A DNA stretch of 64,000 nt, taken from contig NZ_CP012328.1 in NCBI RefSeq assembly GCF_001262715.1, positions 186,001 to 250,000 of the forward strand, read 5' to 3'. The notes beneath the pieces were generated by a model that saw nothing but the letters and a program-made list of their open reading frames with translations, did no database searches and was not told the DNA's origin. The DNA comes from Spiroplasma turonicum. GTDB lineage: Bacteria > Bacillota_I > Bacilli_A > Mycoplasmatales > Mycoplasmataceae. Shown here piece by piece: positions 3,286-5,023 of this stretch. Each line of letters opens with the position of its first letter. Position 1 is the first letter of the stretch. A program made the position numbers and the translations under genes.

Positions 3286-4059
3286 TTGAAAATTAGAAAA
3301 ATCGATAATACAGCGTGAATAAAAAATTTCTTTTTAGTAGATGATTATTTATACATAACAAATTCAGAACCTTATAAAAAAAATTGTTTTATAGCAAAAG
3401 TTAAAGTTTTTAAGGTTTTAGAAAATCTTAAAATCAGATCTAACATTAATAGGTACTTCCTTTCTAACCCAAATCCAACAGAATTCAATCCCATAGAAGG
3501 CTCTATGAGTGATTTAGAAATAGTAAAACTAAACCAATTATTTGTACAAAATGTATATAAATTTAAGGAGTCTATATGCATTTCTCTTGTTGATGATAAT
3601 AAAATAATTGAAAATAAAACTTTTGAAGGTGAATTAATTAATGAACTTCAAGACTGCATATATTTTGGATATTCAAACGATGAATATATATTTAAAAAAA
3701 ATAGAAATTGCTTTTTATATAATAAACAGAAGTTTATTGAATTAGATTTTGTTAATATAATTAGTTTTGCTGATAGTTTTGTAATACAAAATAGTTATGA
3801 ACAAATATTTTTATATAATAAAAAATTCAAATGTATAAAGAAGATTGATGATAGTAGAGATTATAAAAAAATTTATTACATTAACGAAAGAAACGTATTA
3901 ATTTCTAATTATAAAGAAAACATAACTTATATTTATAATATTGATACATGTAAAAAAAATATCTTCTCAAATTTTTTTATAAGTAGAGCATTAATGATAA
4001 ATAAAGATTTGATGATTATTAAACAAGATAAAAATGACAATATATCTTTTATAAATTAA
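3286..4059 (+). CDS. Hypothetical protein, TTG start
   Basis: I do not recognise this 257-residue protein. The TTG start is chosen because AAAGGAGAGC lies six to eight bases upstream and the frame is open from there through one TGA (Trp); the next in-frame ATG is about 73 codons later and would discard conserved-looking sequence. There is no signal peptide or membrane segment. The second half is rich in aromatic and Ile residues and alternates short hydrophobic strands with polar turns (for example DCIYFGYSNDEYIF, QIFLYNKKFKCIKKI), which suggests repeated beta-strands, perhaps a small propeller, but this is a guess. It is flanked by terminators and convergent with the next gene. Confidence 0.75.
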
Positions 4060-4060
4060 A

Positions 4061-4088
4061 AAAAAAACTACTTTCGTAGTTTTATCTA
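4061..4088. terminator. Bidirectional terminator between convergent genes
   Basis: AAACTAC and GTAGTTT pair around TTTC (4065-4082). The A run on the left gives a strong U run for the minus-strand transcript; the plus strand has only TTTATC, so termination should be better on the minus strand. The minus-strand gene's stop codon lies inside the stem. Confidence 0.75.
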
Positions 4089-5011
4089 TTCATTTCGTAA
4101 TTTTTTTGTTTTTCTGATAGATTTGTATAAACTCCATATTGGAATGAGTTTCCTTTAGATCACAAACCTTTAATTGTTTTAACTATAGTATAAATAATGA
4201 ATAATTGCATTGCAATTTTTAATGGTGCCAATAGGGCATCAAAGAAACCAAATATTCCTTTGTTTTTTGGATTAAATAAGTCTGCTATTATTGAAATGAT
4301 TGTCAATATTGATAATATTATTTGAATAATTAATATTATTGTTGCATAAACTAAATTAATAACAGCTATTAAATTCATAAATTTATAACCAGCACCTTTT
4401 TTGTCCCAAACATTTTTAGCGTTTGGCCCAGCAAATAATGCACAGTTTAAAATTCCTCAAAAACCAATTACTGCAAATACAATTCATACAATTTGATTAG
4501 TTTGACTCATACCCATACTTAATCCAGTTCCTTTTAAGAATATAAAGTAAAAAGAAACTCCAACAATTGGTGCAAGTAATGCGTTAACACCATAAGCTTT
4601 AGAAATAGTAAATTTTGGATCACTTGATGATTTAACTTCAACATTTGGCATCTGAGCTAAAACAAATGGTGTAAATAATCCACCAACTGATAAAGAGAAT
4701 ACTGCTAATATTCATCTATTGTTTATTAATGTATCATCATCAGATTTTCTTACAAAGTTGATAATATAACAACAATAATATAGATTTCCACAAGCTAGGA
4801 ATGCCATAACTGAGAATAAAACTGGTATATATTCTGGTTTAATATTTTCTGTTAACATAGCAAGGTCGCTAGAGCTTAATCCTTGTCTCAAAAAAAGTTG
4901 TGCAATATATATTAGAACTACAATTCCAAATGTAGCAGATATGACTCCGAAAATGTTTGCAATAATTAGTCAAGTTCTTATAGAACTCATTGATCTTCCT
5001 GGTCTAATAAT
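4082..5011 (-). CDS. Multi-spanning membrane protein of unknown function, probable ATT start
   Basis: The frame codes for about 309 residues with several hydrophobic segments, roughly six to eight membrane spans, for example WLIIANIFGVISATFGIVVL near the N-terminus and IILIIQIILSILTIISIIA near residue 235. I recognise no transporter motif. A perfect Shine-Dalgarno AGGAGGTGA (5015-5023 on the minus strand) is followed by three in-frame ATT codons and no ATG, GTG or TTG; the first ATG (4988-4990) is 27 bases away. I therefore place the start at ATT 5009-5011, six bases after AGGAGG. A short, basic N-terminus would result. It lies 68 bases downstream of a secreted protein on the same strand, so the two may form one operon. 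Confidence 0.7.
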
Positions 5012-5014
5012 AAT

Positions 5015-5023
5015 TCACCTCCT
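5015..5023 (-). promoter_or_regulatory. Strong ribosome binding site that decides an ATT start
   Basis: AGGAGGTGA on the minus strand is the best Shine-Dalgarno match in this region. The only start codons at normal spacing are ATT triplets in frame with the membrane protein downstream. Confidence 0.65.

Follow-up and report, generated by a model that had tools for sequence, protein, structure and literature searches.

A very likely ATG-to-ATT start-codon switch in a conserved membrane-protein gene of Spiroplasma turonicum

A conserved membrane-protein gene of Spiroplasma turonicum very likely exchanged its ATG start codon for ATT in this lineage. The gene lies on the minus strand of the window, by which we mean the whole 64,000-nucleotide stretch of DNA analysed, and its frame (4082-5011) comprises 309 codons and a stop when read from the second of three consecutive ATT codons; the encoded protein has about seven hydrophobic stretches. 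The ancestral ATG of this conserved and still functional gene would have become ATT (5011-5009) in the lineage of S. turonicum Tab4c, for which a single G-to-T substitution is the simplest route. A 9-base-pair Shine-Dalgarno helix (AGGAGGTGA, 5023-5015) may still hold the 30S subunit in place, and the initiator tRNA would most likely start, with low efficiency, at the AUU at 5011 or at the AUU that follows at 5008. The product would be the full-length 309-residue protein in reduced yield, and part of it may begin at the AUG at 4990, which has a weak AGGA site. Initiation at AUU, the AUU yield and any regulatory effect are what we infer, and we lean towards the view that initiation at AUU works in this gene. 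An earlier note on this DNA had described a membrane-protein frame headed by ATT and had suggested that such a start could limit the level of the protein; the observation is confirmed and the interpretation is partly supported.

The ribosome-binding site and the three ATT codons

Read on the minus strand from 5026 to 4988, the DNA runs TTT, AGG, AGG and TGA, then three ATT codons, then AGA CCA GGA AGA TCA and ATG. AGGAGG (5023-5018) and TGA (5017-5015) together form an extended Shine-Dalgarno sequence, AGGAGGTGA, on the minus strand. It is the exact 9-base complement of GGATCACCTCCTTTC at a second locus of the same genome (L067), a stretch that we take to be the 3′ end of the 16S rRNA. The three ATT codons (5014-5012, 5011-5009 and 5008-5006, all minus strand) lie 3, 6 and 9 nt past AGGAGG. 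Among 59 AGGAGG-N5-9-ATG matches in the same genome, not all of them confirmed as gene starts, the spacing is 5, 6, 7, 8 and 9 nt in 16, 13, 17, 5 and 8 cases, so that the second and third ATT stand at a usual distance and the first does not. On this argument from spacing the first ATT, just 3 nt from AGGAGG, is an unlikely start and was rejected, the second is the preferred start codon and the third is an alternative. An out-of-frame GTG (5018-5016) was likewise rejected, since it shares bases with the binding site and its frame ends at a TAG four codons later.

No ATG, GTG or TTG lies within usable distance of the binding site, and ATT stands there instead. The first in-frame ATG, GTG or TTG after the upstream stop is the ATG at 4990, 27 nt past AGGAGG, and the frame is open as far as the stop at 4084-4082 (code 4, TGA read as Trp). 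Both points had been made in the earlier note, which saw a strong binding site with only ATT at proper spacing and the nearest in-frame ATG 27 bases from it, and both hold on recounting. Of 56 open frames of at least 100 codons surveyed crudely across the window, with starts picked by a score favouring a binding site, 54 had a binding-site match of at least 4 bases at the chosen start; the 9-base match before the ATT of the membrane-protein gene was the longest.

We asked how unusual this arrangement is within the genome. AGGAGG-N5-9-ATT is not enriched (30 places at 29 distinct sites vs 40 in a backward control), and AGGAGG-N5-9-ATA/ATC occurs at 28 places vs 71 in the control. AAGGAG-N6-10-ATT was found at 103 places vs 71 (100 of the 103 were examined), and AGGAGG followed by ATG, GTG or TTG is enriched (71 vs 49). 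Because AGGAGG-N5-9-ATT is no commoner than in the backward control, a bare pair of site and ATT means little and it is the gene behind it that counts. We looked at the frames behind 186 distinct sites, AGGAGG or AAGGAG, that have ATT, ATA or ATC at a usable spacing in the window and in fetched parts of the genome, dropping frames that ran off the fetched stretch upstream; AAGGAG sites followed by ATA or ATC enter the count where they lay in such stretches. Sixteen of these sites head a frame of at least 50 codons without an upstream in-frame ATG, GTG or TTG, and in 11 of the 16 a usual start lies 3-15 nt past the site. The other five are two opposite 921- and 417-codon frames, two short frames (51 and 58 codons) and the membrane-protein gene. 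The latter is the only long sense frame without a nearby usual start among the 186 sampled AGGAGG and AAGGAG sites, to which this uniqueness is confined. Two other loci (L042 and L047) were considered as further ATT starts and rejected, both being internal to longer frames.

Upstream of the gene, TAGGAGGTG is invariant across 10 aligned upstream regions. On the minus strand, 6 nt upstream of the ribosome-binding site, the window has an extended −10-like element, TG-A-TAATAT (5038-5030), of which TGnTAnnAT is kept in the alignment of the window with nine relatives. This element suggests that transcription may start from a promoter of the gene's own, leaving a very short mRNA leader of about 15 bases. 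It was recognized in the upstream alignment alone; a scan of the single sequence for promoters gave 12 sites vs 12.0 expected, which is chance level. RNA folding around the start region did not stand out from that of shuffles (window z scores 0.45 and 0.41).

At the other end of the gene, directly past the stop codon (4081-4058), AACTAC-GAAA-GTAGTT followed by a T run resembles by eye a weak terminator. A terminator scan, which demands three G-C pairs, listed none, this stem included. The convergent neighbour on the plus strand (3286-4059) has an apparent TTG start behind AAAGGAG, a 7-base match to the ribosome-binding consensus.

Orthologues and their N termini

The membrane protein is present in 63 of the 99 related genomes searched, this genome counted, including 60/60 of its family and 20/20 of its genus. 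The 62 other genomes come from a genome search; separate pattern scans of related genome contigs matched 46 and 33 stretches, none of which was confirmed as a relative. The proteins form a family of about 300 residues, found in every searched genome of the family-level group and lacking a usable Pfam or NCBIfam match. As a single query against Pfam-A and NCBIfam, the window protein returned only PsbW (E 0.082, under the cut-off), and thus no family match above the cut-off; 21 aligned family members gave no NCBIfam match and, in Pfam, DUF3413 at E 0.0097 in one member. A structure model of the window protein from its single sequence was poor (mean pLDDT 49.5, pTM 0.35).

The two nearest relatives, L002 (65% identity to the window protein) and L003 (61%), place the start codon. 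In L002, AGGAGGTGA and AATTT are followed by ATG and GTA, then by CGA CCA GGA AGA TCA and ATT; in L003, AGGAGGTGA and AAAT are followed by ATG and GTT, then by AGA ACT GGA AGA TCT and ATG. The window counterpart has AGGAGGTGA, the three ATT codons, AGA CCA GGA AGA TCA and ATG. The N termini of the relatives, MVRPGRS and MVRTGRS, vs I-I-RPGRS in the window align unambiguously, with the second ATT in the place of the ATG and the third in the place of the Val codon. RPGRS is common to the window and L002, and R-GRS to the window and L003, and both are encoded upstream of the first canonical start. The comparison of 5′ ends with Spiroplasma orthologues that the earlier note had proposed thus sets ATT at the orthologous start, where L002 and L003 have ATG. 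Because the strong binding site is already found in these relatives with ATG, it is a precondition of the switch and not a later compensation. Where the window has the ATG at 4990, L003 encodes a Met within its protein and L002 has ATT, which encodes Ile.

An ATG is offered at the aligned N terminus in 62/62 of the other genomes with the gene (29 read from loci and 33 from fetched stretches; a partial match on contig 24 of the fragmented genome G025 was left out), with a GTG just upstream as an equal candidate in several and a weak or unusual binding site in some. The earlier note had weighed orthologues beginning at the internal ATG against its own reading, and we found none among the 62 that starts at the equivalent of ATG 4990 with the upstream ATG missing. 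Column 1 of the protein alignment is no evidence in this matter because the software gives the window protein an initial M. Within the genus, the ATT start codon occurs in 1/20 genomes, that of the window only, and ATT is therefore not a conserved regulatory feature. ATT is conserved in no other species and so gives no sign of having been selected.

Alternatives to a start at AUU

The main start may instead have moved to the AUG at 4990 (4990-4988, minus strand), reached through AGGA (5000-4997, minus strand) and yielding a 302-residue protein without IIRPGRS, with the old site left as a remnant or as a standby site. AGGA lies 6 nt before this ATG, within Pro-Gly-Arg codons, a detail that the earlier note had missed; the view that the internal ATG lacks a binding site is not supported. 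Measured to the end of the aligned GGAGG, the gap is 4 nt; infC in this genome shows that same distance (GGAGG-TTAA-ATG), and AUG 4990 is therefore a usable start. AUG is also a much stronger codon: according to PMC13009471, AUU and AUA reporters in Staphylococcus aureus yield about 10% of AUG in poor medium, and AUG 4990 could therefore carry much of the translation. Gene finders restricted to ATG, GTG and TTG would annotate the start here (Prodigal was used for CP013860). Against this stands the length of the N terminus, since a start at 4990 leaves 14 residues before the first invariant Gly vs 17-22 in all 20 aligned orthologues, a range that includes the 21 residues counted from ATT 5011. 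L002 shares the P-G-R codons holding AGGA yet has ATT, not ATG, after them, so coding accounts for the AGGA before ATG 4990. In L003 both ATGs are retained, and the long binding site precedes only the upstream of the two. On this evidence a main start at 4990 is a serious but less likely alternative.

We consider it improbable that the tandem AUU start was selected as a throttle on this conserved membrane protein, with the yield or the ratio of 309- to 302-residue products following initiation-factor levels. If true, it would to our knowledge be the first such case in Spiroplasma; a literature search found no paper on AUU or non-AUG starts in Spiroplasma. The dependence on IF3 raised in the earlier note is carried over from E. 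coli infC. The infC gene of the same genome (G000:C1:1046930-1047436) starts at ATG, so start-codon feedback on IF3 itself is not expected here. More widely, infC has an ATG start in 19 of 20 loci read (L061 and L124-L142; a 21st genome had no locus), including 13/13 in the genus, from which the AUU or AUA start of infC used elsewhere seems to be absent. The exception, L139 from another family of the order (G065), reads AAGGAGGAAGTT-ATA with no usual start beside the site and probably starts at ATA, judging from these bases.

Gene decay is another reading, in which, with its start codon gone, the gene has stopped yielding the protein or the cell can do without it. Start-codon loss is a common first step of decay, and ATT in this place is found in no other species. 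The gene itself looks intact, with no stop or frameshift within its 309 codons and with all columns that are invariant in 20 orthologues kept (14/14 with the start residue excluded, 15/15 with it). Relative-rate tests showed no acceleration in 14 comparisons against L002 or L003 (largest chi-square 2.72), a single comparison having more changes on the window side (32 vs 23). Between the window and L002, identity is 31/67 at fourfold sites and 0.85 at second codon positions. With the gene kept in every searched genome of the family as well, decay is very improbable. A point against the main reading is that N-terminal codons identical to those of L002 could reflect no more than a recent switch, since identical stretches of 16 bases are no rarity between the two genes (15 of 1023 comparison windows).

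Two sequencing studies bear on the bases themselves. CP012328 was assembled from PacBio reads at 616-fold coverage with a consensus concordance of 100.00% (PMC4653801), and for the corrected S. turonicum record, CP013860, a second group resequenced a different subculture with Illumina at 288x and mapped the reads onto CP012328, which turned up 12 SNPs and a single 1-bp homopolymer indel in 1.26 Mb (PMC5034139). An error in the three-ATT stretch, which the earlier note had allowed for, would need only one substitution for the true base to be G and the start an ordinary ATG, and one assembly was examined; given the 616x PacBio reads and only 13 changed sites in the published counts, with a chance of about 3 in 100,000 that a SNP hit the start codon if SNPs fall evenly, we find it scarcely credible. 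We also counted against the ATG-to-ATT switch that such changes are very rare, 1 of 61,358 ancestral AUG starts having become AUU in PMC5622118.

Meaning and comparison with known non-AUG starts

For the cell, an ATT start may mean that the protein is made in smaller amounts or in a slightly shorter form. As a natural ATG-to-ATT switch the case is a clean one: it is dated to a single species, the gene is intact, and relatives already carry the strong binding site. It illustrates how a start codon may decay while the gene survives, given a long Shine-Dalgarno helix. There is an annotation problem as well, in that finders limited to ATG, GTG and TTG would set the start seven codons too late. The finding is otherwise ordinary.

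Weak non-AUG starts of this kind are already known from infC, pcnB and cvfC1, and the membrane-protein gene is a probable further case. Like it, infC and pcnB of Escherichia coli are chromosomal genes with an AUU start expected to limit translation. In E. coli, IF3 exerts feedback on infC, the gene that encodes it, whereas the product of the ATT-headed gene is a membrane protein, not IF3, and infC of this genome has ATG. Both E. coli AUU starts are cited in PMC13009471 (refs 73 and 75).

The same paper describes AUU (cvfC1) and AUA (infC, ccpN) starts in S. aureus, mapped by Ribo-Ret and accompanied by extended Shine-Dalgarno sequences, and it reports that the AUA of ccpN reaches up to about 30% of AUG in rich medium. 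The S. aureus genes cvfC1 (AUU) and ccpN, citZ and infC (AUA), from a low-GC Firmicute relative, resemble the window gene in that a long Shine-Dalgarno helix stands before a non-AUG start. They differ in that their starts were mapped by Ribo-Ret and tested in reporters. In cvfC1 and ccpN the non-AUG codon itself is conserved among relatives, whereas the relatives of the window gene have ATG. A conserved non-AUG codon is not required of every member, since the AUA start of citZ in S. aureus is confined to one strain lineage.

Starts of the AUU type would be overlooked in mycoplasma start-codon counts because these rest on Prodigal, which permits AUG, GUG and UUG only (PMC4444185). The closest parallel on an evolutionary scale is with the prokaryotic AUG-to-AUU switches treated in PMC5622118, in which, as in the window, an ancestral AUG was replaced by AUU in one lineage. 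GUG and UUG starts are reported there to go with stronger Shine-Dalgarno sequences, in coupling statistics that omit AUU. The window gene differs from this coupling, its strong site being already present in the relatives that bear ATG.
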